From NCBI GenBank assembly GCA_015179045.1, contig WHUZ01000018.1, forward strand, positions 310,001 through 374,000: a stretch of DNA of 64,000 bases, given 5' to 3'. The stretch is from Kalaharituber pfeilii (lineage: Eukaryota; Ascomycota; Pezizomycetes; Pezizales; Pezizaceae). The notes under the pieces were generated by a model. It ran no database searches. It was not told the DNA's origin and was given only the letters and a program-made list of their open reading frames with translations. Positions 1 through 42,275 of this stretch are shown here, piece after piece (the first letter of the stretch is position 1; every line of letters begins with the position of its first letter). A program made the translations under genes and the position numbers.

Positions 1-149
1 GTAAATCTGGTTGCACTACCCGCACAAATCCCAAGGAAGCGACAACGCGCAAAAACCTGTTTGTCCCAACAGCAACGTGAAAATTTTTTCAGCAAACCAA
101 CCGCACGCACACAAATTCAGATCACGTAATCACCGCCCCTCTCGACTGT

Positions 150-300
150 ACTTACCAACCCCTCCCACTCATCGCCAGCCCTCTCTTCCTTCCCTCCTCT
201 TCCTCTCCTCAACCGCGCAACCCACCACCACAAGGCCTTCAGGCCTTCTTTTTCTGAAGGATCTCAGCACCTCAAACTGAGATCTCCTTTCTGCATTTCT
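150..300 (+). promoter_or_regulatory. CT-rich tract, possible promoter of the hairpin transcript
   Basis: A pyrimidine-rich stretch (repeated CTCTC, CCTCC and TTCC words) runs from about 170 to 215 and again near 280-305. CT-rich tracts just upstream of transcription starts are common in filamentous ascomycetes. It lies before the hairpin array and has the right orientation for a + strand transcript. There is no TATA box to anchor a start, so this is inference. Confidence 0.25.
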
Positions 301-360
301 TTCCCATCAACTTCGTCTACTCTATTACAAGAGGGTCCATAGAAAGATTGTGATCCAGTA

Positions 361-397
361 CGGTCGGCACCGGCTGGGGGTCCCAGGGTGCCGACCG
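361..397 (+). repeat. Strong 11-bp hairpin at the head of the array
   Basis: Arms 361-371 and 387-397 are perfectly complementary over 11 bp (GGTCGGCACC facing GGTGCCGACC). The 15-base loop contains GTCCCA and can fold further, CTGGG (374-378) against CCCAG (382-386). It is the longest stem in this part of the window. Sharing GTCCCA with the array downstream suggests it may be its first or capping member, but it could be an independent structure or a terminator-like element. Confidence 0.55.
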
Positions 398-3300
398 GAC
401 TGTTCTTGTGTATGTATGATGTCACAATCAATTCAGACAGGTGGGTTTAGGCTCTTTCTTTGCCAGCAGTACATAGCGGGGCCTTCAAAGATTTGAGGTC
501 AAAGGCTGACTGTGCAAAGTCCTGTATAGCTGCGCAAGCGGTCAGTTCTATGCTCCAAGATCTCAGTTGTTGCAAAAGCAATCGAATACTACGTTTACTA
601 CGCCGTCATCCCATCATACGAACAAGTCAATGTACTCAAAATCTTACAGCCAAACAAAGCAATGGGTTCCTTAGAAGGCCGAAAGCGAGTTCATAAGGTC
701 TGTCCCACCTTATCAATGAGCCGGACGCCGTGAATAGGGCTTTCTTGCTATTTTGTAAGTTTATGTACTGCCTGATATAGCAAGTGGAAGGGCTTATTAA
801 TGACAGATGATTCTTCTCGACCAGATTCACTGACTTCATGGTAGGATTTACGTACAAAGGTCAAAAAACGAAGATGAAGTCCATTTCCAGAACCGAAGGC
901 TGATTTATGAGGGACTGTTCCACCCTTATGGAGAAAGCTGGAAGTGACGGAGTGGATGTCGTCTTCCGTTACCAATTCCTCTGAAGATTGCTGCGATCAG
1001 CACACAAACAGATCTCGAAGACCCCAAGTTTAAACCCGATGAGCCAATTCACAAGGACTGTCCCACCTTGCGATGAAAGCTAGTCAGCGCGTACAAGGTC
1101 ACATTGTTATTCCAGGCCACTATGTTATCATAACAATATCATGAGCAGAGAAAGGAAAGAAAATATCAAGTCCATTTCAGAACCGAAAGCTGATTCAGAA
1201 GGGTCTGTCCCACCCGTATGAAGAAAGCTGGAGGGGACGGCGTGGACGGTACTTACGTTACGCAATTTGTCTAAAGAATGTTACGATCAGCACAGGCATG
1301 AATTCGAATGCCTATAGTTGAACACAACAACACCATGAGCCAATTTACAAGGCCTGTCCCACCTTGTGGAGAAAGCTGGGTGTGTTATGTTGGTTATCCT
1401 GGCCACTATGCTGTCATAACACAATAACATGAGCAGGAAATAAGTATCATATCAAATCCATTCCAGAACCGAAAGCTGATTCAATAGGGTCTGTCCCACC
1501 CTTGCGAAGAAAGCTGGAGGGAACAGGTGGACTGTATGTTACGTTACCCAATACATCTGAAGACTGCTCCGATCTGCACAAAGAAATCGAAGGCCTAAAG
1601 TTCAAACGCAATCAGCCAATTTACAAGGACTGTCCAACCTTGTGAAAGAAAGTTGAGGGTGTTCAGAGTTTGCGTCGTTATTCTATGCCACTTTGTGATT
1701 ACAGCAATATCATGAACAGAGAAAGGAAAAACAAGTCCCTTCCTCATTCGAAGGCCAATTCGCAAGGGCTGTCCCACCTTGTGGAGAAAGCCGGAGGTGA
1801 GTGAGTGGGCTGCGCCATGCGTTTATTGTTCTGGTAAGTACTCTACATGCAGATTCTCTCTTGTCACTAGGGAAATAGAAACTGATTGTATTGGAACAGT
1901 GTAACCAACAGCTGAAGAGTAATGCTCTCCGAATCCAAACGTGTATTCTGAGCGAAAGGCTCTTGAGACTAGGTCATCATAATTCATTCTATCTCCACTT
2001 CTATTTTATTCCCTATAACGAATCGACTTGACCAGTACACATCCAGGACGGTCATAACTTCATTTGATCGCCAAAAAAAGGCCCCTTCCTGAGACAAAGG
2101 CAAGCTCACAGGTCTGTCCCACCTCGTGGGTGAGCTGGAGTTGATGGTTTTGTTGGTTTTTTACCTGGATGAGGCTTTCAATGAGGAACATGTCTCACCT
2201 TTCTGGTCGGAAAAAGTTATTCAGGGATATATCAATTCATTCCTTCTGCGGCAAGGATCGCAGCGCAAAGACTACGATTTGAGTCGTTAACGTTAACCCA
2301 CTATGTTCTACTCCACATTTTCTTCCTGAGCCAAAGGCCGTTGATGAGCATTGTCACCCCCTCAGCAATAACCTGGAGGTGATGACAGATGAACTACTTT
2401 ATGCTGCGGCAAAGTCTACACGAGATGTAGCTCGCATTCAATTACTACGATTCGAGTCTTTTCAACAACAATGTTCTATTGCACATTCCTCCTGAGCTGA
2501 AGGCCGTTCGCAAGCATTGCCCCACCCTGGAAGTGATGACAGATGATATCCGCTTTCCTCCGCTTTACAATTCCATGAAGGAGCGGCAAATATTTAGAAG
2601 CGGTGGTTTCTTCGACCGACGACTACGGCTTTATCATTCCCTTTTCTGAAATGAACCATACTCAATGGACTGTCCCACCAGAGAGCTTGGGGATTAGAAG
2701 GATTGGAGAGTGATTAATATCTCGACAGTCGCGAAAGGACGCATTCGTTCCGCTATAGATTTACACGACTACGAACTTTTTTTCCTTTTCCAGAGGAACC
2801 TTGTTCTTGATGGACTGTCCCACCAGAAAGTTCCAGGTCTCCAATGGATTGGAAGGAGTTCTCACTTTGAAAGGTAGTGAAGGACACATTCGGTTGCCTT
2901 TTCCCTTCAACTTCACATCTAAAAAAGAAACGAAAAAAAAAACAAAAAACCGCGTTCGCATACAGTGTTTTTCAACTTCTGGAGGAGCGAAATGACGCTA
3001 GCTGTACTAGTTATTACATTGAAAAGACGTTGGGTTCTGTTCATTTCCTGAAAAGTTTTGTTCTCGATGGACTGTCCCACCGGAGAGATCAAAGCTTGAC
3101 GGATTGAACGGTGTCCCATCTGCAAAGTTCAGAAATTCGATGGAACGAATCAGATGAGGTTGACTTCGCAACAATATGAAAAACTTACTATTCAGCTTGC
3201 TTCTCGGTTTTCCAAAGTCTTTGTTTTGTGAGACTGTCCCAACTCACAGATATTTCAAGACATTGTTACCGAATGGTCTCTAAAAATTATGTTCAACCTC

Positions 3301-3839
3301 TCTACTTCTTAATTACGCAATCCTCATTGATAATCTCCCTCATTTCAATGATGACACCCGAGATCGATGTCGTTGTCCCAGCTTTCTCAATTAAGTCTGT
3401 CCCACTTACTTGGGGAAGGAGCGAGTCTTTCTTGGTCTGAGAATCTTTGCTTCTTGCAGCTAAGTTGAGGCTATCATCGAGTGTTCCGTCCCAACACTTG
3501 GTGGAAGGCTTCAAGGGGTGAAAGCAGTTGGTGTTTCTTTGCCGATGTTGTTATTTATTGCTATTCTTTATGAGTTGAGTGTACGAGGGAACGGTAGCTT
3601 GTGAGTAGATCGTCCCAACTACTCACTCGTTGCCTGTACCAAGTCTCTGGCTCAAAAAAATCTCTTTTTGCAAAGGAACTACACATTTGTTCTTTTCATT
3701 GGCTTCGGTAAGAACCTACTTCACATATAATACATATCTAGAGACAGGCAGCTCACATGACAATATAGTATATTCATCACAAGGAACAAGGAATTAACAA
3801 ATTCTAAGCCTCTGATAGTCCCAACCAGCGGCTTGGTTA

Positions 3840-4500
3840 TAAGTCTCCTCCACTTGTCATTGCTCCCTGGGGTGAGAGAGCTGGGGGGCGATACCTCCAC
3901 CGCTCCCCACGAAAGTGCGAGTGTGAGAAGCCTAGGGGTTTTGCTTTCGGTTTTTCTAGATCGGCTGCCATCAAGAGAATATTTGTAAGATATGGAGAGC
4001 CAGCGCCGATTCTTTACAAACACTTCATTCAGGATGAGGCGGGGAGGAATTCCGACATTCCTCTCCAACAAGCCTCATCCTCCAATGAGTGAACGACAAC
4101 AACAAAAAGGAGTAGGGGGGGAGGAAAAGAGAAGGGGGGAGGAAATGAGAAGGGGGGGGGGGTTGAAACGTGGGTTGGAAACGAGGGGCGTGGGGACAGG
4201 AGGGGAAAAGACCTCCGCCCACAAGGACGGGCACAAAGTCGGGTTTTGCTTTTCTTTTGTTTTCTTTTCTTATTTCTTTCCTTCCACTTTCTATCTTACA
4301 TTTTTCTTCTTTCTGCTTCCATTGTATTCTTCCTTTAACCCCTCGTGGGGGGGTCGGACAAGCTCCGAGCTCCCTTTTTTCGAACACAGCTTTACTAACA
4401 CCTCGGAACCCGGAGCTTGCTTTCCCTTATACCAAACTTGCAGGCTCCGGATTCATGCATCCTGAAAGTGGGGGGTTGGGGGGGGGGTATGTTTAAATGC
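3840..4500. other. Purine-rich then pyrimidine-rich spacer, no gene
   Basis: Positions 4090-4215 are rich in GGGGA and AAAGGAG purine runs, and 4240-4335 is a T/C-rich tract like a fungal promoter. Open frames across this part are low-complexity (poly-Pro/Ser on the - strand, poly-Gly/Arg on the + strand) and look like chance products of base composition. Confidence 0.5.
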
Positions 4501-7800: not shown

Positions 7801-9300
7801 GCAGATGAACAGTAGGGGGGCAATGTGGCGGGTAAGACATGGTAGAGGATGTGAAGGAAGGAGCGCTGAGGCAGGAGATGAAGGTGAAGTAACGGCTCCT
7901 GCGGAAAGGAAGAGGAGAAGGATGTGTAAAGAGCGGAGTTAGGGATAGGGGGTTGGGTTCGCTAGATGGGGCGCGGAGACGTTGGAGAGGGGCTCAGAGC
8001 CTTGGTCTGGCAGATTGGACGAGAATGCAAATAGCAATAATGTACTTATGGCCTTGGGAAACGGAGCTATATATAATGGTAATGAGTAAAATGTCTCTGT
8101 CCAGCGACATGTTTGGACTGGATATAATTAGGGATAGAGGAAGCTAGCTATATATCTAAAACGATCGCCAATTTACTAGAACGTACAACCCGTGTCCTCA
8201 CTCATGTCCACTTGGGTAATCCACCACACGGCCAGACCACCTACTCCAATACTTGGGTATCTACTTCAGTATCCTTCTTAACTATCGCGTGACTGCACAA
8301 CAATAACATCCTCAGGATGATTGTCTGCACTGCCATCGCTCTCCTGAATGTTATGACATCCCAGTGCTTTGCTCCGCCAGTGCAGAATGATAACATCCTG
8401 GGTGTTATTGTAGGCAATATCATCACGCTCTTGGATAGCTTGGCGTTTAGCTAACTCTGCTCCACCCAGCATTCAGGCTACAGCCCTATCTTTACGTAAT
8501 ACACTACATACTCAACGACATCCTTTGCTGCCCCGGCTCTACCAGCACGAAACCTTACAAGTGCACTTATATTCGTTTCCAAAGGGCAAAAAGGAAAAAA
8601 TAATCTACAGCACCAAGGATTCCCACGTGGTCACCCACCGTAGTACTAACTTGGCGATCTGAAGCTTAGATATGGCAGAGCGGACGGGATGCCTCGTTTT
8701 CTTCAGTCTATGGCCGTAGATGCCTACCTTTACTGTTGCTGCATTATATGAAGATGGGAATTTTGAACATTTGACGAGTTTTTTATATGTCGTATAAATA
8801 CAGAAAATGTGTATATCTTTTATGTGATGTAGCGACCGGCTTATCAGTAGTGTATCACAAGTCAATCGGTGGAGGGAGGCTTGATCGATTGTGTTGTCTC
8901 CTGTCAAAGATGTTCGAATTTTATATGATATACCAGCCTGGTCGGCTCGCTGAACGTTACTGCATATCCTGTTTCGCTCAATGCCGCTTTGATCAAGCGA
9001 CTTACGCAGGGAGGCTTAACGGAGGGGTTACCCCATAAAATGAGTATTGGGGCAGTTTTTACAAGAGCCTAAACTCAGAGATAATAAGGTACAGAAACTG
9101 ATTTTGTGGAGGATGGATATAGGCGTAGGGTTGCAGGGTGCGCAGTTACCTTGTACGATTGTGTGACACTCGTTGCCTGCATCCACTCACTTTGGGGCGA
9201 CTGTATACTTCAATAAGAAGTTTCAATCCAATGATCGTGATTGGTTGAGTTTTGTGGGGACGGTAGTGCCGTCAATTAGTATTCTTTAGAATTATCTATA
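7800..9300. other. Intergenic sequence with partial tandem-repeat units
   Basis: Open frames are short and without recognisable motifs. Around 8800-9020 words from the upstream tandem repeat (TTTTATGTGATGTAGCGACCG, AGGCTTGATCGATTG) reappear. AACATCCT words recur at 8300-8410 around small dyads. Nothing else supportable. Confidence 0.4.
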
Positions 9301-11491: not shown

Positions 11492-11583
11492 GCCCTGCTG
11501 GCGCAATTGGCAGCGCGCAAGACTTCTATACTTCTTCAGAGAAGGTTATCTTGAGGTTGCGGGTTCGAATCCCGCGTGGGGTG
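11492..11583 (+). tRNA. tRNA-Arg (UCU anticodon) with intron
   Basis: Acceptor arm GCCCTGC pairs with GTGGGGT (11576-11582), allowing G-U. The D arm is GCGC-loop-GCGC, the anticodon stem CAAGA/TCTTG and the T arm GCGGG-TTCGAAT-CCCGC. The anticodon loop reads CTTCTA, giving anticodon TCT. An intron of about 19 nt follows position 37, the canonical eukaryotic nuclear location. A and B box sequences are intact, so it should be transcribed by RNA polymerase III. Confidence 0.93.
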
Positions 11584-13200
11584 CAACTATGCTTTGCTTT
11601 TGCTGTACCTTCCTTCAATTTGCAAGAAAGATCGATATGGTGATGTTAATTTTTTTTTTCCCCCATTTAAATCAATGGGTGCCTTCCCCTAAGGATTTAT
11701 GTGAAAATCAAAACCAAATTTTACCAGGGTACAGTTCCACCGCAAGCAGGGGGTAGCTTCTCTAAGCACTTGGATGTGAGTAAATAATAAATCTAGAAAA
11801 CTTTTTGGTATGCAGACATTTACACCTTAAATGCAGAAATTATGAGCCAGCGAACAAGCTGTCAATCTCACCACAAAAGACAACATGAGCTCTCAAGCAC
11901 CAAGAGAGAGCATTAGGTCTTGAGAAACAGCAGTCAATTTCTGCCGGCAAGCACTAGGTAGCTGTTAGGTATCAATATAGCTAAAAAGTGAGGAGACTGA
12001 ACTCTCCAGGTGAAATTTTTTTGCTGGAGGATAAGAACGCATTACTGGATATTACATATGCAAGCAAGAATAAGTACAAACACGCGAGTAATGATATAAA
12101 AAAAAAAAAGATGCACATGTGCATTTAAATATCCTCTATATGGTATAGTTATTATAAACTATGCTACCTCAGCAGTAGTGTACTCCAACTAACTGCTTTT
12201 GTGATTTATTGTTTATTGTTTATTCAAGTGAGTCTTTTGAAAGAGGGGTACCCCCCGCCCTCTTTCAAAAAATTGTTTCGAACGCTCTACCAAACAATAA
12301 ACCAGGGATACGGACCCCGGATTTAGTTCAAACCCAGGGTTTGAATTTCACATATATCCTTAGGGGAAGGCACCTTACTCGCATGCCCCGCCCTAGGGGC
12401 TACGGCGAAATTAAATACATAGGAGATAAAGAAATAACTAAGATTGGAATTTGGACCCGTCTCGATATGGTGTGTCATAGCGAATTTAGTTTTCTTTGAG
12501 CTTCTAACTCACCAGCTTTTGAGCGCCTCTCTAGAACATCATGGTATGGGAAAAATCTTATATTCCGCTCGCATATTCGTATATTAAATCCTAGTAAAAA
12601 TTAATCTTGATCCAATGTACATAGTCAACCCTTTTTAATTGCGTTTCAAACTCACTAAGCCGTATTCCGTACTTCGAAACTTTAGACGTGTTGTGGTCAA
12701 TTGAATTACGCTAGGAGTACCCATCCAAGTTCAGTTTCTGTCACTGGTGAGGTTATAGTGGCGCCATAGCTAGAAGTAAAGATGGAATCGTTCTCTGGTA
12801 TGCTGACTTACTTCCGTCACCTCTTCGACGTTGTCCCCCAACCCGCCTAAGGCTAGTCGCCCACGGAATTCACTAATGGAGTGTTTCACCTAGAAACCGC
12901 CCATCACCGGGAAACCGCCCAAATTTACAGGACGACGGATAAAGCTCCTGTGAATGAGAATGGCCCTCAGGAGGGCTCAAATTAAAGCCAGAGCATGAGA
13001 GAATATAGTAAATTATTTTTTGCAAATTCTTTTTGCCAACTGATTACCATATGAGTGGTGACATATTCTGGTATATATCCAGCCCTTATGTTAAATATGC
13101 TTTGAGTCACCATGTGTGGAAGAGCTTACCTGAAATCTTATGTTCTGAATATATACTCTACAGCCTATGCTGAAGAGGTGTAGCAAGTTTGGTTGTGACT
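11584..13200. other. Intergenic region with two small family-1 scraps
   Basis: At 12081-12109 (+) only the distal CACGCGAGTAATGATAT plus oligo(A) remains. At 12377-12430 (-) there is a tail without its oligo-T: GCATGCCCCGCCCTAGGGGC and flanking bases. The 96-codon frame 12209-12499 crosses the second scrap and is not a gene. The rest holds nothing recognisable. Confidence 0.5.
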
Positions 13201-25189: not shown

Positions 25190-27396
25190 GTAGGATTCGG
25201 CGAAAAGAACGGTACTTCATTACTTTTGACACCACGTGGAGCATGCCCTCCGTTTACGCGCAATGTCCAGACCTTTCCAACATCCTTGTTATTGTTCACA
25301 ATTCAGTTAATAGCTTTGAAGCCGTACCTGTTAGCAAACACATGGCCAATAGATGGGGAAACGTTGGGCTGCATATGCTTGAACTGCTACAAGAAGGATG
25401 CTCCTCCTTTCACCCACAATCCAGCCAAAATCCAACATCCTTGATCAAATCATATTCCATTGACGCAAACGGTGACCTTTTTTGTGTTCTGAGGAAGAAC
25501 AGCATCTTGAATGGCCGCGACTTGACCTTCAATATATATGCTGACACCGAAGAGATTTTGGAAAGTGCTTGCAATTCCATTGCATGGGCAATTGGGGCAT
25601 TGAGGCCGCAGTCGGATAAGACGCAACTATCACAGGTAAATCATGTGAGGATGCGGATATTGGTAGACCACCCGATTGGTTCGCCTCAGAAATTATCAGC
25701 GATTTCTATAGCAGCGTCCCCTGAAGAATGGTACAAGCGCACCTATCGTAACTGGATCTGTCCGGGGAATTCTCCATTGCTATCTTTCGACGAAGGGGAG
25801 GATTTTGAGTTGAGGGGATACAGGGACTTGTCTCTGCAGGACAAACAAGATAGTCCGTGCACTTGTTGGAAAAAGTTATTCGGGGCGATTGTGGTTATGG
25901 AGAGTAAGCCAGATGTTTTCAAGGAGTGTCGATATCCGTTTGGGAGCTCAAACATAAGTGACAGCTTACCCGGGCTGTTGGTTGACTACGAGGTGTTGCT
26001 ACACCTGTCTGCTGTCACGCATGAGGTTTTATGTGCAGATGGTATAGTCCTCATTGGCTTTGAGACGGCCTTAATCCCACTAACACCATTGGAAAATCAA
26101 CCATCTGACGTGATCCGCTGGCACTTCATTACCACGCCTGGAGAACAAGTCACTTACGATCTATTGGATGTCCCCAATCAACTGATGGTTCAGGATAGCA
26201 GCATGTTCCACAATACTAAAGCGCTGGTGGGATGGACAACCCATGCAAGGATGCTCGTCGGGTCATCCCTGATTGATGTGCATATTAGTGGTGCAAGGCG
26301 GGCACAACAACCGAAGTTGCATGTTAAATCCATGAAATCGATACGACCACAGGTGGCATGCAATGTAAGCATCATGCCGGTGATTTCCTTTACCTTAAAT
26401 CCGAGGCGAGAAAGAGTGCATACCTCGCTACCATGCGAAGTTGCCTTCAATGCAGCATCAAATCTGTGCGGTATCCTCAACCAAGCTTCAAAAATGCACT
26501 TCATTCTGTGTGATACTGAGAGTGGTCATGCATGGTTGGTCCCTGCCCTGAACTACCTAATATTTGCAGTTTCGTGTTATCTGAAAGAGAACAATTTTGA
26601 ATCGCCATATCCCTGCTATACCCCCACAAGCGCACTCGATGATCCAGTAAAACTTCAACAAGAGATTCAGCAAATCTTAGGTGAGTACAAGTCATTTAAG
26701 AAAGGGAGTTTGGAGATGCTTGTCGAAGACATCGTTCAAGAGATATGGCAGCGCACTGCATCTGCAAAGAAACAGCTTGCAGAGTGGGTAAATTCAAGGT
26801 CACTTGAACGGAACGATACCTGTCTCTATGGAATGGAGTTATACAATGTGATATTTGATGGTGAGCTCCAGTTGAAAGAGGTGGACCTTAAGAGCTATCC
26901 TTCAATTGTGGCTTGGCGAGCACTTACTCGGGAATGCTTTGTCTTCTTTGCGCAGGATGTTGGGGACTTGATCCAGGCAGTCGATGGCAGAAATTGTCCA
27001 TCCTGCCAGACTTTATCAACCATAGCCAAAGGTGTGTTACACTGTAGGGTTCCTGATCTGAACAATCTCAGAAGCCGACGTTCCTCCACATCCTGGACTA
27101 CAGAGATATGTCAATACACCCTGGCTGAGGACGTGAAGTGGCATATTACTGGAGACCCGTTCAGGCCCTGTGATTTACCCATCTGTTATGGCGCAACCAA
27201 AGTTCAAAGGCTTATTGTTGGTAAGGAAACCAATAATTGTCTTGATAATAACCAACAAGTACGGTCTCCAATTCCGTATCTTGGTGGAGTCCGTTTTGGG
27301 TGTCCCTTGCAAGTGGAACAAGGAACTAGCTCTGTGAACCTAAATGGACAGCAAACGGTAAGTCCTCCCGCGAAACGTGATAAAGGGTATCTATAG
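25190..27396 (+). CDS. Large uncharacterised ascomycete protein, paralogue 1 (main exon)
   Basis: The frame is open from the acceptor at 25190; the first in-frame ATG is 25243, but upstream residues RYFITFDTTWSMP are conserved in paralogue 2 and belong to the protein. About 735 residues. Conserved blocks: the FDTTW start, TCWKKLFGAIVVMES (about 210), LPGLLVDYEVLLHLSAVTHE (about 245), DGIVLIGFETALIPLTPLEN with DVIRWHFITTPGEQ (about 270-310), KALVGWTTHARMLVG, LNQASKMHFILCD and PYLGGVRFG near the end. This matches a widespread ascomycete family known to me only as hypothetical proteins, with TTWD, FETxLIPL...WHF and VGW signatures. No signal peptide or membrane segment. Cys-x2-Cys at NCPSCQ (about 600) is present in both copies. 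Function unknown. Confidence 0.85.
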
Positions 27397-31889: not shown

Positions 31890-32790
31890 CAAATTGGGTA
31901 TATCGCAAAATACTCGCAACGCACACGCACTCGCACTCGCACTGGCACTGGCATAGGCACACGCATCTGGCATCTCGCACACGCAAACAGCACACACGCA
32001 AAAAGCACCTGCGCAAAAAGCACCTGCGCACTCGCATATACGCACTTAGACATACCGCACCACGCACACCGCACCTGCAAGACCTCAACTCACTCCGGAG
32101 GTGGGAGAGGCATTAGACCCTGAAAAACGCCACACGAGATAGCACAAAAAGCATAGAATAGTATCGAAGCAAGTATTCCTTTTGTCAGCACTATTTATCA
32201 GCGTGATTTATCAGCGTGATTAGGAATATCATACAGCACCGCAACAAAAATTAGTCACGATTTGTTAGTAATGGAGCGAACATTGATGGCGGAGGTTCTG
32301 AGTGGACGCTTTGACGTTGTGTTGACTTTAGTGGTCGCTACCATTCTCAGCCACTTTGCCACATTTCCTAATTTGGTAGTCATTACCGTTCTTGGCCTGT
32401 GTGTGCGGATCAGGTGATAGAAGATCAGATGATAGAAGATCAGATGATAGAAGATCAGGTGGAGGCAATGGTAGGCTTGGTGTCGAATATGTTGAATATG
32501 CTGAGTCTGCGAAAGATATAAGGAAGCCAGGAAGGACGCATCGAGAGAGGGAGGCACGCATACCTTCATCGGCACGCACATCCGCACGCACATCTTCCTC
32601 CGCACCGCACAATCAGCACAATCGCACCTCGCAACCGCACCCTCCGCTCGCACCGCTCTCTGCTTCATCTCTTGCTTGTAACCGCACCCGCACTCGCACA
32701 GGCACTCGCACCCGCACACGCACTTGCACACGCACCTTACCTTGCACACGCACCTTTCCTCGCAACCACATCTCGCACCGCATCTGTACC
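31890..32790 (+). repeat. CGCAC-repeat leader of the LTR element
   Basis: Two clusters (about 31910-32075 and 32560-32775) consist of degenerate CGCACTCGCA and GCACACGCA units. They give Arg/Thr/His-rich frames on both strands that are unlikely to be protein. The second cluster directly precedes the preferred gag start. A role in packaging or as an untranslated leader is possible but unproven. Confidence 0.5.
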
Positions 32791-32820
32791 TGTTCAGCAC
32801 TCTCCGAATCGAAAGCAACC

Positions 32821-35052
32821 ATGCCAGAAGGAAGTGTCGCCGCATCCGGATCTTCTTCATCCGCTGGTTCTTCATCTGCTGGTTCGACTGCCGGTGTTTC
32901 CACGAGTACCTCAGCATCTGTGCCTATCTCATCCCTCTGTTATTTCCCACTACCGCATCAACCAGGTGCACCAAATTTTGAGGGGAAGGACATATCACGA
33001 TTTATTGCTATATGGGAAGATTTGACAGCAGGGTGGGAGGACGAGAAACGAATTAGAAAACTCCCCTTCTATTGTGATGAGGATACGGGCACTCATGTTA
33101 AACAAATCATTAACTTCAAGACTGTGACAACATGGGATACATTCAAAAAGGAACTGCTGGAAGAGTTTAAGGATTATGACGAAGAGCAACGAAGGAATAC
33201 CGAGGCTTACCTGCGTTCCATGATTCGCACTATTCGGAACATGTCGGACCCTACTCCCATTCAAATGAGATCCTTTATTTTCAACTTTTCGGAAAGGTCA
33301 GAGTATTTAGTCAGCACTGGGGCTATTAGTGAACATACCCGAGTTCTTCTTTTCCTTCAGGCGTTCACAGAAAAGGTAGGCGACATGCTGTGCAAGGAAT
33401 GCTCGATTGAGTTGGAGAAACCGTCGACGACACGAACGATTTGGGCGGACCTGAAGAAGGAGGCGTTAAAAATATGCACCAAACAAAACCTGCAAATGTG
33501 GAGGTTACCAAAGGTTATCCAAATGGTTGATAAAGACATGGATGTGAAGGAAGCAACGCCGTTTAAGCCAATAGCAGAGAAGCCATCTCCGAATCCCGAG
33601 CCTCCAGCATCGAAGGGAAAAGTTGACGTAGACGAACTCGCCGACATGATGAAGGAGCTGAAGTTGTATCATATCGAAATGCAGCGGACGCGACAAAATC
33701 AGCAAGGACCATCGAGACCATACTATTCACCCAATCAATATGGCAACCGAGAATATCCACCAAGTGCAAACCGTGTCAACATTAGGGGGTGCTATTGGGA
33801 CGGTGGACCGCATGGTAGGGACTCTTGTGAAGGATTAAGGAAGGCAATTGAAAGAGGAGATGTACATCGACGTGGTCCAGTGCTGTATCTAGGGCAGGAG
33901 GGGGTAGGGGACCCAGTGCGTGTACCTATCCCAGTTGAGGTTGATGGAAAGATTGAATGGCAGCAGGACTGGGTGGCTGCGCAACTAAGGAAGAAGGAGT
34001 CGGAGATGCCTAAAGCGAATTGTATTACCATCGAGGACTGTTTGCCCAAATCAGCATCAGAGTTCATCAACGGCGAGCCAGTTGTATACGTCGCAACGGA
34101 GGAATCGAGATTAGAAGCAGAGGTAGAGGAGAAGAGGGGGCGGCGACTAGACGATGATGGCGACAGAACGAGGAAACGGCAGAAGAGTGGTTCAACAATC
34201 CGAGTGATGCGGCGACCCGCTGGCATGGATAAAGGTAAAGAAAAAGATACTGTCATACAGGACGTAGGACCAAGCAGTGCTGGACCAAACAAGGAAGTAA
34301 CAAAGCGGCAGAAGCAAGAGAAGCTATGGACCTCGCTTCGAGAATCAGCAAACCTCCTTGAGTTAAGCAACAAGGTCCTCGACTCACCAATTCCGGGATT
34401 AACAGTGCGCGAGGTCTTATCGCTATCTCCGGATCTCATTCAGCAATGGTTCGGTATCAAGAGGGTTCCACCGCTTAACAAGGATAAAGATGGGAAGGAG
34501 GGGGTTGATGCGCATATTAACGCACTGCGGTGGTCAGAAGCTCTGCGGAATCTGTATGCATGCGCATCACCACGTTGCAAGGGCCGGATCGAGGGACAGA
34601 CGTTTGATATGTTGATCGATTGTGGAGCTGAGCTGTGTCTAATGTCGAGGTCAGTATACGAAGAGTTGGACAACTTACCTATAGATCTCGAAGCGGAATG
34701 GACGGTGGGGTCGGCAAATTCGCAGCGGTCGATGATATATGGTATATGCCACGATGTGCCGGTTAACGTGGGAGGGATTGTCGCCAGCTGCAATTTCTTC
34801 GTCATGGAGGGTCTTTCGCAGGACGTCATCTTGGGGAGACCGTGGGAACGAAAGGTACGCGCGAAGCATGACAATCGAGATGACGGAAGCTGTTACACGA
34901 CCATATATGATGCCGACGGAAACTCTGCAACGTTCTGCTCCGTGCCCCCAAATCACAGCCGCAACCGCAGCAGAGCAAGGCTACCAAGGCAACCAGGATT
35001 AGGATCGGGATCAGGTTCGGGAATGGTATCGGGAAAAGGACCGCGTCAGTAG
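32821..35052 (+). CDS. Gag-protease polyprotein of the LTR element
   Basis: The frame is open from 32392, but 32821 (CAACCATGCCAG) is the likely start since upstream codons come from CGCAC repeats. Residues 1-45 are Ser/Gly/Ala-rich. A gag/capsid-like domain follows (FEGKDISRFIAIWEDLTAGW to about 220), then a charged linker and a degenerate knuckle (CYWDGGPHGRDSC), in which Asp replaces the usual second Cys. The C-terminal third holds the aspartic protease: MLIDCGAELCLMS (DCG instead of DTG or DSG), then DVILGRPW as its partner strand. The frame stops soon after the protease. About 743 residues. Confidence 0.88.
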   Translation: MPEGSVAASGSSSSAGSSSAGSTAGVSTSTSASVPISSLCYFPLPHQPGAPNFEGKDISRFIAIWEDLTAGWEDEKRIRKLPFYCDEDTGTHVKQIINFKTVTTWDTFKKELLEEFKDYDEEQRRNTEAYLRSMIRTIRNMSDPTPIQMRSFIFNFSERSEYLVSTGAISEHTRVLLFLQAFTEKVGDMLCKECSIELEKPSTTRTIWADLKKEALKICTKQNLQMWRLPKVIQMVDKDMDVKEATPFKPIAEKPSPNPEPPASKGKVDVDELADMMKELKLYHIEMQRTRQNQQGPSRPYYSPNQYGNREYPPSANRVNIRGCYWDGGPHGRDSCEGLRKAIERGDVHRRGPVLYLGQEGVGDPVRVPIPVEVDGKIEWQQDWVAAQLRKKESEMPKANCITIEDCLPKSASEFINGEPVVYVATEESRLEAEVEEKRGRRLDDDGDRTRKRQKSGSTIRVMRRPAGMDKGKEKDTVIQDVGPSSAGPNKEVTKRQKQEKLWTSLRESANLLELSNKVLDSPIPGLTVREVLSLSPDLIQQWFGIKRVPPLNKDKDGKEGVDAHINALRWSEALRNLYACASPRCKGRIEGQTFDMLIDCGAELCLMSRSVYEELDNLPIDLEAEWTVGSANSQRSMIYGICHDVPVNVGGIVASCNFFVMEGLSQDVILGRPWERKVRAKHDNRDDGSCYTTIYDADGNSATFCSVPPNHSRNRSRARLPRQPGLGSGSGSGMVSGKGPRQ

Positions 35053-35190
35053 TGGGCCCGGGAACAGCTGACGTCGCATTGATCCGGGGGATAGAAAGGC
35101 ATAGGGATGACTGGGGGGAAATATACGGGTTAGCATTCGAGGGTAGCAAGGCAAGAGTGATATGCATGGGAGGTAGGAGGGGTCAATAAC

Positions 35191-36483
35191 GTGGAAGGGG
35201 TTAATGAAGGTATGCCTGAAGAGCTCCGCAAGGTTGCACGATACCTGGTTACCATGGAAAGGCCTCCCGAGATGACAGACAAGCAATTCCATTCGTTCTG
35301 GAGATTCGCACTCCACTTCCTGGTAGCAGAGGGTAAGCTGTTCCGCCGTTCGCGAATTAACATGCCGCCGAAGAGGGTCGTCTGGGGGAACGAGAAGCTC
35401 GAGATAATCCGACAACTGCATGACGAAAGCGGGCACCGTGGCATCAAGGGCACCTATGACAAGATTGCACTGCGGTATTGGTGGAAGGGTCTTTATCGAG
35501 ATGTCGAGCAGTACGTCAGGAGTTGCGAACCGTGCCAGAAGAGAGCGCCAGGAAGGGTTACCGAAGAGCTGCATCCCACATTGTATAGCGCACTATGGAG
35601 GAAGGTTGGTCTCGACGTGGTGCATATGCCAAAGGACGAGGGGTTCAGCTATTTCGTAGCTATGCGGGATGATTTCTCCGGATGGGTGGAAGCGAAGCCA
35701 CTGCGCAAGGCGAACTCCAGGGCCATCGCAACATTTATTTATGAGTGGATATCTCGATTCGGCGTTCCCGGAAGGATAGTATGCGACAACGGGCCGGAAA
35801 ACCAAGCTCTCACGCAGGAGTTAATGGCCAGGTATGGTATCCAGAACGTCAGGATTGCCACATATCACCCGCAGTCGAATGGTCTCGTGGAACGTGGACA
35901 CCAGCAGATCGTAGATGCGCTCGCAAAGCTCGGAGGGAATAAGGGAAACAAGTGGGTAAAGCGACTTCCGGCAGTTCTCTGGGCGGATCGTGTCACCACT
36001 CGCGCATCGACCGGATTTCCGCCATATAAGCTCGTGTTTGGCCAGGATTGTGTGCTCCCAGTGGAAATATCCGCCGCATCGTGGGCCATGGTGGAGTGGG
36101 AGAAGGTGCAATCGAGGGAACAATTGCTTGCAGCGAGGGCACGGCAGCTCGAGAGGCGAGAGGAGGATCTCAAAGCGGCAGCAGAGCACCTGAAGACAAG
36201 CCGGATGGACAATAAGCGATACTTCGATGCCAACCGCAGGAAGCGAGCCGGAGGGGAAGAGCTGCAAATAGGTGATATGGTCCTGGTATACAATAGCCAG
36301 CTTGACAAGCAGTGGTCCAGGAAGCTCGATAACCGGTGGATGGGGCCCTATATCATCAGGGATATCAAGAGGGATAGGGGCACGTATTTGCTTGCAGAGC
36401 TCGATGGTACACCCATGGATAGCATCATTGCCGGTGACCGCATCAAGAGGTTCTTTCCGCGCCGGGGGGGTAGACCGCGATGA
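35191..36483 (+). CDS. Integrase of the LTR element
   Basis: The HHCC zinc-binding domain has HDESGHRGIKGTYDKI and CEPCQK. The catalytic core shows D in GLDVVHM, D in CDNGPEN and E in HPQSNGLVERGH, the D,D35E triad of Ty3/Gypsy integrases. The C-terminal part has a charged helical segment, then GDMVLVYNSQLDKQWSRKL and RWMGPYII, typical of the GPY/F module. The upstream residues (EGMPEELRKVARYLV) normally join RNase H to integrase, showing the deletion ended close by. No stop interrupts it. It lacks an obvious way to be translated except as a separate cistron or by reinitiation. Confidence 0.92.
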   Translation: MEGVNEGMPEELRKVARYLVTMERPPEMTDKQFHSFWRFALHFLVAEGKLFRRSRINMPPKRVVWGNEKLEIIRQLHDESGHRGIKGTYDKIALRYWWKGLYRDVEQYVRSCEPCQKRAPGRVTEELHPTLYSALWRKVGLDVVHMPKDEGFSYFVAMRDDFSGWVEAKPLRKANSRAIATFIYEWISRFGVPGRIVCDNGPENQALTQELMARYGIQNVRIATYHPQSNGLVERGHQQIVDALAKLGGNKGNKWVKRLPAVLWADRVTTRASTGFPPYKLVFGQDCVLPVEISAASWAMVEWEKVQSREQLLAARARQLERREEDLKAAAEHLKTSRMDNKRYFDANRRKRAGGEELQIGDMVLVYNSQLDKQWSRKLDNRWMGPYIIRDIKRDRGTYLLAELDGTPMDSIIAGDRIKRFFPRRGGRPR

Positions 36484-40035: not shown

Positions 40036-42275
40036 GCGGGATTCCCCGTATTGCTAATCAATACTTCACTACGTTTCGCACGACATGGGATATGCCCCCA
40101 GTTTACGAGCTCTGTTCAGACCTTTCCAAAGTCCTTGTTCTTACTACCAATTTGTATGGTAGCTTTGAGGTAGTGACTGCCGGAGTGCACATGGCCACTA
40201 GCTGGGAAAACGTTGGATCACACATGCTCGAACTGCTCCAAGAAGGATGCTCCTCCTTTCACTCCCTATTCAACATAGATTTTGATGCAACTGGTGGCCC
40301 AAAGCAGGTATCTGTGACTAAATTATTTTCCATTGATAGCGATTGTGATCTCCAAATTCACCTTTCTATTCTGAGAATGAACAGCAATCGCCACGGACTA
40401 ACCTTCAATATACTTGCTAACAACCAAACTATTCTGAGAAGCGTTTGCAACTCCATTGCGTGGGCCATTGGGGCGTTGAGGCTACCATGGCCGGATATGG
40501 AGCAATCAGCTAGGGTCAAGTTTGTGAAGTCGCGGGTACAGCTACAACATTCGGTGTATTCGGCTCAAAAATTATCAGCGATACCTGTATCAGCCTCATT
40601 TGACGGAGAGCGTATGTGGGTACGAGGTAACAACAATCGATCGCCAGGGGAGCCTCCCTTGCTATCGTTTGACGAAAAGAAGGATGCATGGGAATCTCAA
40701 GCGATACAAGACGGTCCCTTCACTTGTTGGAAGGAGTTATTCAGTACGATTGTGGTTATGGAGCGTGAGCCAGACGTTTTCGAACGGTATCCTTCTGGAA
40801 GCTCAGCAGTACGTGACAGCTTACCGGGACTTTTGGTTGACTATGAGGTATTGCTACACCTATCGGCAGTCACACATGAGGTTCTATATGAGGATAGTAT
40901 AGTCCTTATGGGCTTTGAGACAGCCTTAATCCCCCTGACACCACTGGAGAACCAACGATCTGGCGTGGTCCGCTGGCACTTTATTAGCACCCCCGGGGAA
41001 CAAATAACCTACGATCTATTGGATGTGCCTAATCGGCTGATAGCTCAGGAAAGTAACTTGTTCAACAATACTAAAGCGCTGGTGGGATGGACAAACCACG
41101 CAAGGATGCTTCTTGGCTCATGCGTAATGGGTGCTGTTAGGTTGCAAATTAGTAGCGCAAGGCAAGTACAGCAACCAAAGTTGCGTCTCAAATCCCTGAA
41201 ACCTTTACGACCGCAAGTAGCACTCAATGTAGGCATCATGCCGGTGTTCTCCTTTACCCTAAATCCGAAGCGAGAAACCGTTCAGGCACTGCTGCCCTGC
41301 CAAATTGCGTTCAACCCAGCCTCAAATCTTTCTGGCATCCTCAATCAAGCTTCGAAAATGCATTTCATTCTGGTTGACCCTGACGGTGGCCACGGTAAGG
41401 CATGGATGGTTCCTGCCCTGAACTATCTTATTTTTGCAGTTGCATGCTACTTAAAAGAAAATAATTATACGCCACCATATCCTTGCTATACCCCTACAAC
41501 TGCTCTCAGTGATCCAGAAGCCCTACAGCAAGAGATTCAGGAACTCCTAGGTCAACGTATTTCATTCAAGAGGGGAACATCGGAAATGCTGCTGGAAGAT
41601 ATCATTCAGGAAATATGGCAACGCACCGCCTCAGCAAAGAAACGCATTGCAAAGTGGATAAGCCAAAGCGTAATTGCACAGGACACAGCTTCCTTCTATG
41701 GGATGGAGTTGTACAATGTGATATGTGATGGTGAACTCCAGTTGAAAAGGCTTAGCCTTGACGACTATCCTTCAATCGCAGCTTGGAGAGCACTTTGTTG
41801 GGAATTGTGCATCTTCTTTGCCCCAGGCATCGGTGACCTGATCCAGGTGATTGATGCTGGAAATTGTCCACCATGCCAGGATTTATCAGGCATAGCCAAA
41901 GGTGTCTTGCACTGTAGGATTCCTGATCTGGTGAAGCTGGCTAGCCGGCATTTTTCTACGCAATGGACTGCAAAGGTACATGAATACACCTTGACTGATG
42001 GTGTGACATGGCGTATCAGTGGGAATCCATTCAAAAGTTGCGATCGAGACACCTGTTACGGTGTAGGTAAGCTGCAAAAAGTGTATCTTGAGAATAAAGG
42101 CTTCAAGTGTGCCAATAAGCACGAGGGAGGGCAATGTGGATCTGAGGTTCCGCGTTTTGGTGGTGTCCGTTTTGGTTTCCCTTTGCAAGTATCTGCAAAG
42201 TCAAAGAAACAGCCAAAGGTGCGTCCTCCTTTGAAACCATCTAAAGGGGCATATATGGTTCTACGACTGATCTAA
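40036..42275 (+). CDS. Large uncharacterised ascomycete protein, paralogue 2 (main exon)
   Basis: Open from the acceptor; the first ATG is 40092, preceded in frame by conserved QYFTTFRTTWDMP. About 745 residues, colinear with paralogue 1: TCWKELFSTIVVMER, LPGLLVDYEVLLHLSAVTHE, DSIVLMGFETALIPLTPLEN with VVRWHFISTPGEQ, KALVGWTNHARMLLG, LNQASKMHFILVD, a Cys-x2-Cys (NCPPCQ) and PRFGGVRFG. The strongest conservation lies in the GFETALIPL-WHF and helical DIIQEIWQRTASAKK regions. Both frames are intact over 2.2 kb, so at least one copy was recently functional. No enzymatic motif recognised. Confidence 0.85.

Follow-up and report, generated by a model that had tools for sequence, protein, structure and literature searches.

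A candidate + strand RNA array in the desert truffle Kalaharituber pfeilii with covarying rods and a nearly constant GUCCCA loop

The desert truffle Kalaharituber pfeilii carries a candidate RNA array of ~3.5 kb in + sense, located at ~340-3860 of the window, by which we mean the whole 64-kb stretch of DNA analysed. There is strong support for a single-stranded structure in which the loop is nearly constant and the stems compensate. We consider it moderately probable that the locus is a gene for a + strand long non-coding RNA (lncRNA) that presents its GUCCCA loops multivalently to one RNA-binding protein. The covariation is supplied by diverged units inside one locus, and the structural claim therefore stands without any relative's genome. 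Long eukaryotic RNAs supported by covariation are few, and many structure claims for lncRNAs are made without it.

Results

A strand-specific loop core at a single locus

The sequence CTGTCCCA occurs 12 times in the window, always on the + strand and between 700 and 3404 (2.05 expected; largest of 100 shuffles, 5). Its core, GTCCCA, is found 19 times on the + strand and 0 times on the - strand of positions 1-4200, and five times on each strand in the remaining window. Within 441-3880 it is the most frequent 6-mer (17 copies; reverse complement 0; 0.6 expected from shuffles, largest 5), and the last A of GUCCCA is invariant in all 17 aligned units.

The array DNA matched only itself in the 78-Mb genome (up to E = 10), and the same holds for both flanking foldbacks; a second, reverse match of the 5' one is its own palindrome falling on itself. 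Ten of the 11 genomic copies of GGNCTGTCCCACC lie inside the array, and the sole copy outside gave no comparable rod on folding. Genome-wide, CTGTCCCACC shows no enrichment (163 copies, vs 217 of the reversed control), and dispersed targets with exactly this sequence are therefore not apparent. The pattern TGTCCCAN{125,150}TGTCCCA gave 30 matches, five of them at the array locus, vs 25 in controls, and model R1, applied to 15 of the 25 off-locus matches, found nothing better than E = 4.1. In IMG/VR, four contigs had one AAGGNCTGTCCCACCTT apiece; their examined stretches held at most two copies of CTGTCCCA each and no array. When R1 was run over 30 loci, eight matches up to E = 10 were obtained, the best four being these IMG/VR contigs and the others having E values of at least 1.4. 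No Rfam family reached its gathering score in the array, the only such matches in the window being 5S rRNA and tRNA elsewhere; over positions 1-4300, Rfam gave five weak matches, all below threshold (best E = 0.34). The longest ATG frame in 441-3850 encodes 67 aa, which is below the shuffle mean of 84.

Rods and their arrangement

The folded units and associated features are given below. The outer limits of the rods are soft, as folding used 48-nt flanks.

342..434, + strand, 5'-most very stable foldback, single copy; includes the GTCCCA site at 380; 24 pairs around the loop when forced open; CCCA paired in the unconstrained fold
658..749, + strand, rod; loop T-CTGTCCCA; stem ATAAGG/CCTTAT
840..1692, + strand, two-rod unit in ordinary tandem duplicates (61-87% alike, spaced 276-296 bp); recent portion of the array
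867..970, + strand, rod; variant loop A-CTGTTCCA; stem TTTATGAGGG/CCCTTATGGA; internal loop GA opposite GAA
1020..1100, + strand, rod; loop A-CTGTCCCA; stem CAAGG/CCTTG
1164..1251, + strand, rod; loop T-CTGTCCCA; internal loops GA opposite GAA and GAA opposite GGA
1310..1403, + strand, rod; loop C-CTGTCCCA; stem TTTACAAGG/CCTTGTGGA
1444..1542, + strand, rod; loop T-CTGTCCCA
1582..1684, + strand, rod; variant loop A-CTGTCCAA; stem TTTACAAGG/CCTTGTGAA
1734..1811, + strand, rod; loop G-CTGTCCCA; stem TTCGCAAGG/CCTTGTGGA
2071..2168, + strand, rod; loop T-CTGTCCCA
2305..2394, + strand, degenerate rod formed only when the loop is held open; variant loop TTGTCACC; stem TGAG/CTCA
2633..2714, + strand, rod; loop A-CTGTCCCA; TGG/CCA, AA opposite GA, CTC/GAG
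2773..2861, + strand, rod; loop A-CTGTCCCA; TGG/CCA, GA opposite GA, CTT/AAG
3025..3121, + strand, rod; loop A-CTGTCCCA; TGG/CCG, GA opposite GA, TCTC/GAGA, AAGTTTTG/CAAAGCTT
3199..3277, + strand, rod; 10-nt loop ACTGTCCCAA; stem TTTGTGAG/CTCACAGA
3382..3418, + strand, short hairpin; loop T-CTGTCCCA; TAAG/CTTA, then TTTCTCAA/TTGGGGAA
3439..3537, + strand, rod; loop TCCGTCCCA; stem TCATCGAGTGT/ACACTTGGTGG
3567..3658, + strand, rod; 10-nt loop ATCGTCCCAA; stem GTGAGTAG/CTACTCAC
3779..3857, + strand, rod; loop ATAGTCCCAAC; CTG/CAG and CTAAGCC/GGCTTGG
4021..4091, + strand, foldback just 3' of the array, single copy; z -5.7 for the tile at 3961

At 16 of the 19 GTCCCA sites, taken without selection, at least 19 pairs enclose the loop, and each of these sites tips a rod; the sites at 63, 3113 and 3375 form none (5, 0 and 0 enclosing pairs, respectively). 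Three further rods have a variant core, namely GTTCCA at 915 (36 pairs), GTCCAA at 1630 (32) and GTCACC at 2351 (26), the last being absent from the unconstrained fold. Together they account for the number of about 19 hairpins given by an earlier, sequence-only reading of this DNA. A degenerate copy at 2517 has just 10 enclosing pairs. Most rods are 80-100 nt long; about 27 pairs enclose the loop, and the internal loops are small. The earlier reading had also noted a frequent spacing of 135-160 bp, and indeed 11 of 18 core-to-core distances, the degenerate copy included, fall within 135-165. Its array start at 57 has to be moved: the unit at 57-80 has a 4-bp stem and forms no rod, and the first strong foldback lies at 342-434. 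The 3' limit perhaps reaches as far as 4091, where the foldback at 4021..4091 may possibly be a 3' end structure belonging to the array.

Stems covary between units

Across all 19 unselected GTCCCA sites, a site's own arms formed 22.2 enclosing pairs vs 13.3 for swapped arms (p = 2e-5, the floor of 50,000 permutations), and the folding energies at the same sites were -24.4 and -17.0 kcal/mol, respectively. This bears out the proposal that the loop is kept while the arms change and stay complementary. Ten chosen diverged units yielded 27.9 pairs with their own and 14.4 with swapped arms (p = 5e-5); gapped flank similarity persists in 4 of the 45 pairs among them. Part of the array consists of tandem duplicates, and the covariation argument is therefore based on those units whose flanks show no detectable similarity. 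In three seven-unit subsets of this kind (26.7-27.7 pairs observed vs 11.4-14.6), the true pairing was the sole arrangement of 5,040 to reach the observed pairs or energy. The contrast with tandem duplication drawn by the earlier reading was only partly right: covariation persists in units without detectable flank similarity, but a two-rod unit is repeated in tandem over ~840-1692, and there is also mutual likeness among units 2670, 2815 and 3072 (63-75% over 56 nt). The number of enclosing pairs is by itself a loose threshold because 19% of random places reach 20; the decisive test is that of own vs swapped arms.

The arm covariation score was reached by 0 of 500 shuffles. Of the alignment cells, 75% were paired, vs 34-60% after sliding. 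Further pair types were not exceptionally numerous, as 125 and 74 of 500 shuffles reached their count. With RNAalifold, the 17-unit alignment yielded no consensus fold, whilst a nine-unit one yielded 11 pairs, three with double changes. A model built on the first nine units recovered five of eight held-out units (E 0.0007 to 0.89), unit 2815 only across model positions 10-22, and found nothing else in the 64-kb window up to E = 10; a sequence-only model recovered two of the eight. When positions 1-4300 were searched with filters off, the nine-unit model missed held-out units 3610 and 3816 and ranked one place on the - strand (E = 0.37) above unit 3486 (E = 0.57), which was also held out. Blind scanning for the centres of rods gave 33 peaks, 12 of them at most 6 nt from a core (7% or ~2.4 expected) and 21 elsewhere. 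The MFE z-scores of 120-nt tiles were mostly unremarkable and did not single out the rods.

Internal loops and strand

Tandem G.A is enriched in internal loops of 2x2 or larger: 17 of 41 such loops have G.A on each side, compared with 48 of 674 loops from random places (Fisher p = 7e-9). For the ten units only, the figure is 8 of 19 (p = 4e-5).

Among 128 stem cells from 16 units, we counted 12 G.U and 2 A.C (binomial p = 0.0065), in agreement with the several G-U pairs in + sense noted earlier. Since G.U exceeds A.C, + strand RNA is favoured. Folding energy at the 19 unselected sites decides the strand weakly, the plus strand being lower in 12 of 19 (p = 0.06). The - strand of 17 chosen units folds into rods too (10-33 enclosing pairs), as would any complement.

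Discussion

A multivalent loop-binding RNA as the preferred reading

The stems differ while the letters at the rod tips are nearly constant, and the tips therefore probably represent many copies of one protein docking site. From the DNA, we infer that the array is transcribed, acts as RNA rather than DNA, has a protein partner and serves titration or scaffolding. The earlier proposal of a structured RNA with loop binding sites, or of single-stranded DNA, is thus strongly supported as to structure and favoured as to + sense RNA, whereas transcription and the binding-site role belong to what we infer here.

The + strand transcript would fold into a string of ~19 rods, mostly 80-100 nt long, joined by linkers and broken by purine internal loops, often tandem G.A. 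Each rod tip would expose a nearly identical apical loop of 9-10 nt with the core GUCCCA, which may serve as a sequence-specific docking site for a single RNA-binding protein. Through its repetition, the RNA could act as a multivalent decoy or scaffold, so that the protein would be titrated, or gathered in a body or at a locus. The array may have grown by tandem duplication of rods, whose arms would afterwards have drifted under compensation with loop and rod shape retained. If transcribed, it would provide a natural array of multivalent loops whose binding code could be read, lead directly to a new fungal RNA-binding protein, and illustrate clearly how lncRNAs evolve via rod duplication in which only shape and loop are kept.

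Alternative readings

Known loop-binding proteins often act on mRNA, and the rods could belong to the UTR or an intron of a protein-coding transcript and act there in cis, e.g. on its localisation or stability. We regard this as unlikely. Introns of such size are unusual in ascomycetes, and among 17 chosen frames from ~20 kb upstream and the window, those above the curated Pfam cut-off were only upstream RNase H pieces and a retrotransposon protease/integrase at 32-36 kb. At ~17 kb upstream, an AIG1-like Pfam match is below its cut-off, and two predicted proteins at 25 and 40 kb are without a Pfam domain.

Quite unlikely, too, is a cluster of milRNA-like precursors, in which Dicer would cut arm-derived small RNAs from a polycistronic transcript with the common loop as processing signal. 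The length of most rods is about that of pre-miRNA hairpins, the enclosing pairs and small internal loops fit, and the arms vary between rods. However, miRNA families keep the arm and let the loop drift, and the array does the reverse. Furthermore, the array DNA has no other genomic match up to E = 10, though 20-nt targets could escape such a search, and the only Rfam miRNA match, mir-26, scored 17.3 bits, far under the gathering score of 57.

It is improbable that the loops base-pair with another RNA (rRNA, snRNA or mRNA) instead of a protein. A constant loop of 6-8 nt has the size of a seed, and 18S rRNA contains a GGGAYAG stretch that could pair with CUGUCCC. The final A of GUCCCA, kept in 17 of 17 units, would nevertheless face an A in that stretch. 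A pattern search for the stretch gave 0 matches in the K. pfeilii assembly and so says little on pairing with rRNA or snRNA. An internal partner, TGGGAC, is absent from 1-4200, by which self-kissing loops are rejected as well.

We likewise hold it improbable that the array is a decaying relic of a once-functional RNA, or a one-lineage curiosity without present function. Copies 61, 2517, 3113 and 3375 have lost loop or stem, as decay would predict, but both are retained in units that have diverged past detectable flank similarity.

Very improbable are single-stranded DNA hairpins acting as recombination or replication sites. Integron attC arrays share covarying arms and regular spacing with the present array, but here the loops are constant and not the arm ends. 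The only integrase among the 17 frames is that of the retrotransposon at 35 kb, and no recombinase or Rep was found among them. The excess of G.U fits RNA better, though G.T in DNA leaves the same trace. We know of no single-stranded DNA system for a eukaryotic locus of such form.

Comparison with known RNAs

According to the sections of PMC4719309 on these RNAs, the Drosophila lncRNA roX1 measures 3.7 kb, and roX1 and roX2 carry an 8-nt motif repeated in stem-loops. The array is similar in having a short motif repeated in predicted stem-loops on a kb scale. In contrast, roXboxes pair with inverted roXboxes and form clusters of three to six (same sections, PMC4719309), whereas the array has ~19 copies, its motif is an apical loop with stems free to change, and no complement is present (no TGGGAC in 1-4200). 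The bacterial small RNAs CsrB and CsrC sequester an RNA-binding protein through CAGGA(U/A/C)G repeats in predicted hairpin loops, as described in part of PMC7652899. Like CsrB, the array has repeated hairpins that share one loop motif while the stems vary. Its core is GUCCCA, however, and not the GGA of CsrB loops, and its rods are long, whereas CsrA ligands selected in vitro mostly have at most four contiguous pairs (PMC7652899, in the portion on these RNAs). The array is best read as resembling roX or CsrB in logic and as a member of neither. To our knowledge, there is no CsrA in fungi.

The Drosophila nuclear lncRNA hsr-omega, a further case of a long repeat array in a non-coding RNA, gathers hnRNPs into nuclear speckles by its tandem array. 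Its 280-bp tandem repeats extend over ~5-15 kb (hsr-omega passages of PMC9865238), whereas several units of the truffle array are without detectable similarity outside the hairpin. In fungi, the lncRNAs meiRNA and telomerase RNA are said to scaffold or attract proteins; in the main text of the review in question, "hairpin" and "stem-loop" occur 0 times, and its passages on these RNAs do not describe a constant-loop hairpin array (PMC8113380). Literature searches gave no fitting hairpin array among the matches listed (best 20 of 6,453; 30 of 435; 10 of 25); K. pfeilii is named in nine papers. Tentatively, the truffle locus may represent an undescribed kind of fungal lncRNA: a single-copy gene of ~3.5 kb made largely of ~19 rods with G.A-rich joints and one GUCCCA loop, in which evolution would have retained the loop and the rod shape alone. 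Such an RNA might correspond, in a eukaryote and with long rods, to the CsrB-type protein decoys, or might scaffold a nuclear body, with its own loop-binding protein.

Classes rejected

Chance is ruled out by the shuffles and the swapped arms. Double-stranded DNA binding sites are rejected, in line with the earlier argument against sites for a DNA-binding dimer, as the arms vary and the loop is nearly constant. A dispersed transposon or MITE family does not agree with an array and two flanking foldbacks that match only themselves, nor a coding repeat with ATG frames of no more than 67 aa. SECIS-like elements were dismissed because a UGA/GA core is not constant across the listed units, and kink-turns because no G.A loop has the defining 3-nt asymmetry. 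By counts in 441-3880, a Pumilio (PUF) array (UGUANAUA 0, 0.4 expected) and a box H/ACA snoRNA cluster (ANANNA 85 vs 77 expected, ACA 68 vs 62) were rejected, as was a box C/D snoRNA cluster, with RTGATGA present three times (0.5 expected; at 2379, 2533 and 3348) for ~18 units. In the same interval, CTGA occurs 19 times vs 12.7 expected (largest 21).

Predicted hairpin rods and their loop

The array (~340-3860 of the window, + strand) is a string of predicted hairpin rods, numbered here by the window position of the loop core. In most units the loop was N-CUGUCCCA, 9 nt long; it was 10 nt in units 3234 and 3610. The loop core GUCCCA was altered in rods 915, 1630 and 2351. Within 1-4200, the GTCCCA core occurred 19 times on the + strand and never on the - strand, and CTGTCCCA was found 12 times in the window (2.05 expected), always on the + strand and within 700-3404.

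When the loop was held open, 17 units gave a mean of 26.8 enclosing pairs, and 1500 randomly chosen places a mean of 10.9 (Mann-Whitney p = 1.4e-9); these units had been picked as hairpins, and sites 3111 (28 pairs) and 3373 (0) were excluded. In an unselected test of all 19 GTCCCA sites, the native flanks ("own arms") formed 22.2 pairs and flanks exchanged among units ("swapped arms") 13.3, with p = 2e-5, the minimum obtainable from 50,000 permutations. At least 19 enclosing pairs were present at 16 of the 19 sites, the exceptions being 63 (5 pairs), 3113 (0) and 3375 (0). With the three altered-core rods the total is 19, in agreement with the approximately 19 hairpins counted in the sequence-only reading.

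Many units carried small purine loops beneath the apical stem (GA|GA, GA|GAA, GAA|GGA, AA|GA). GA stood on both sides in 17 of 41 loops of at least 2x2 (18 units); randomly placed sites put through the same folding gave 48 of 674. Good stacking is a property of tandem G.A pairs, which also interrupt long perfect helices; thanks to such loops the rods may escape handling as double-stranded RNA.

Covariation and kinship of the units

The main worry for the covariation case is kinship among paralogous units. A two-rod unit is plainly tandem-duplicated in one section of the array, and further units group into small families. The higher-order repeat at 840-1692 holds three copies of the two-rod unit at spacings of 276-296 bp; a linker dyad, TGTTATCATAACA, lies at ~1123, with a weaker version at ~1410.

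We therefore consider sets of less related units. A ten-unit set with one member per apparent family (700, 915, 1354, 2114, 2815, 3234, 3397, 3486, 3610, 3816) had a mean ungapped identity of 28% in the 45-nt flanks (largest 44%). With own arms these units formed 27.9 enclosing pairs at -27.1 kcal/mol, compared with 14.4 pairs at -17.3 kcal/mol for swapped arms (p = 5e-5). Because 4 of the 45 pairs of units were still alike in gapped comparison, above the 99% level of shuffles, the largest subsets without alike pairs were used (seven units each). In the three tested of those found, only the true arm arrangement of 5,040 reached the observed pairs or energy. Common ancestry of the flanks is unlikely to account for this result, which makes the covariation case firmer. 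The claim that the stems vary yet stay complementary was thus borne out. Its contrast with ordinary tandem duplication holds for the seven-unit subsets, which lack detectable flank similarity, and fails for the duplicated two-rod part.

In a 16-unit alignment, both-sided changes occurred at all seven apical-stem pairs, which 12 of 500 shuffles matched. Both-sided change was seen in 25 cells vs 10.7 in shuffles (0/500 reached this), and 75% of cells were paired vs 34-60% in slid registers. The count of further pair types was unexceptional (reached by 74/500 shuffles).

Strand and model searches

Counted over 16 units, stem positions one to eight comprised 99 Watson-Crick, 12 G.U, 2 A.C and 15 other combinations. 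Since A.C in the + sense equals G.U in the opposite strand, this asymmetry (p = 0.0065, related units counted apart) favours RNA of + sense; G-U pairs were also noted in the earlier reading. The fold energy agreed in direction, at -27.3 (+) vs -21.0 (-) kcal/mol for 17 chosen units, but less clearly for the 19 unselected sites, at -24.4 vs -21.4, with + lower in 12 of 19 (p = 0.06).

A covariance model of the first nine units recovered five of eight held-out units with no other match in the 64 kb, missing 3486, 3610 and 3816; a version without base pairs recovered two of eight and, at E = 7.4, one chance place. When 1-4300 was searched unfiltered, the nine-unit model gave 3486 at E = 0.57, ranked under a - strand place at E = 0.37.

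Genome searches covered the 78-Mb, 360-contig assembly. Ten of the 11 occurrences of GGNCTGTCCCACC lay inside the array, and CTGTCCCACC showed no genome-wide excess (163 vs 217 for the reversed control). TGTCCCA pairs at array-like distance gave 30 matches, five of them from the array locus, vs 25 in controls. Array DNA matched only itself in the genome up to E = 10, in a search whose first screening step can miss matches.

Putative function

No Rfam family reached threshold over 1-4300, and the longest ATG frame in 441-3850 (67 aa) was under the shuffle mean of 84. A PUF binding array was rejected, PUF sites being absent, as was a C/D and H/ACA snoRNA cluster, whose boxes were not found per unit.

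A near-invariant loop on freely changing stems is the expected look of selection for loop recognition, and ~19 loop copies on one predicted RNA would provide avidity. The array is read as a probable multivalent docking RNA, decoy or scaffold. Of the structured RNA with repeated loop sites proposed earlier, the structure is supported by the covarying stems and the + sense is favoured; loop docking is inferred. CsrB is described as a decoy for CsrA (PMC7652899), which the array's putative decoy role would resemble; roX RNAs are described as a scaffold with roXbox stem-loops, the number of which tracks activity (PMC4719309), as in its putative scaffold role. The array differs from both, the GGA loops of CsrB and the roXbox pairing having been looked for in it and not found; it is not assigned to either class.

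Surroundings of the array

Features annotated in the window
8602-8721, - strand, 5S rRNA gene
11492-11584, + strand, tRNA gene, perhaps intron-containing
25243-27396, BDZ91DRAFT_725212, 717-aa frame, 100% match to a protein of the desert truffle Kalaharituber pfeilii (Pezizales)
40092-42275, BDZ91DRAFT_725235, 709/709 aligned residues identical to the frame

As impressions from one sequence, a pyrimidine-rich stretch at ~165-215 could be promoter-like, and the 3' end could lie at a foldback spanning 4021-4091. The foldback is single-copy, directly follows the array and reaches ~-45 kcal/mol jointly with its neighbour 3982-4020; downstream, G-rich tracts extend to ~4660 and the GC skew switches. 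ACTACG occurs six times in 441-3880 (range 586-2773; reverse complement 0), four of them in second-half linkers (2271-2773).

In 17 frames scanned around the array, the curated Pfam matches fell in upstream RNase H pieces and in a Ty3-like retrotransposon at 32-36 kb, made up of frames for aspartyl protease, H2C2 zinc finger and integrase core (32392-36480). BDZ91DRAFT_725212 and BDZ91DRAFT_725235 are predicted proteins without a Pfam domain and are paralogues (59% identical). No other of the 7994 candidates scored reached E = 1e-3, so both are perhaps lineage-specific.
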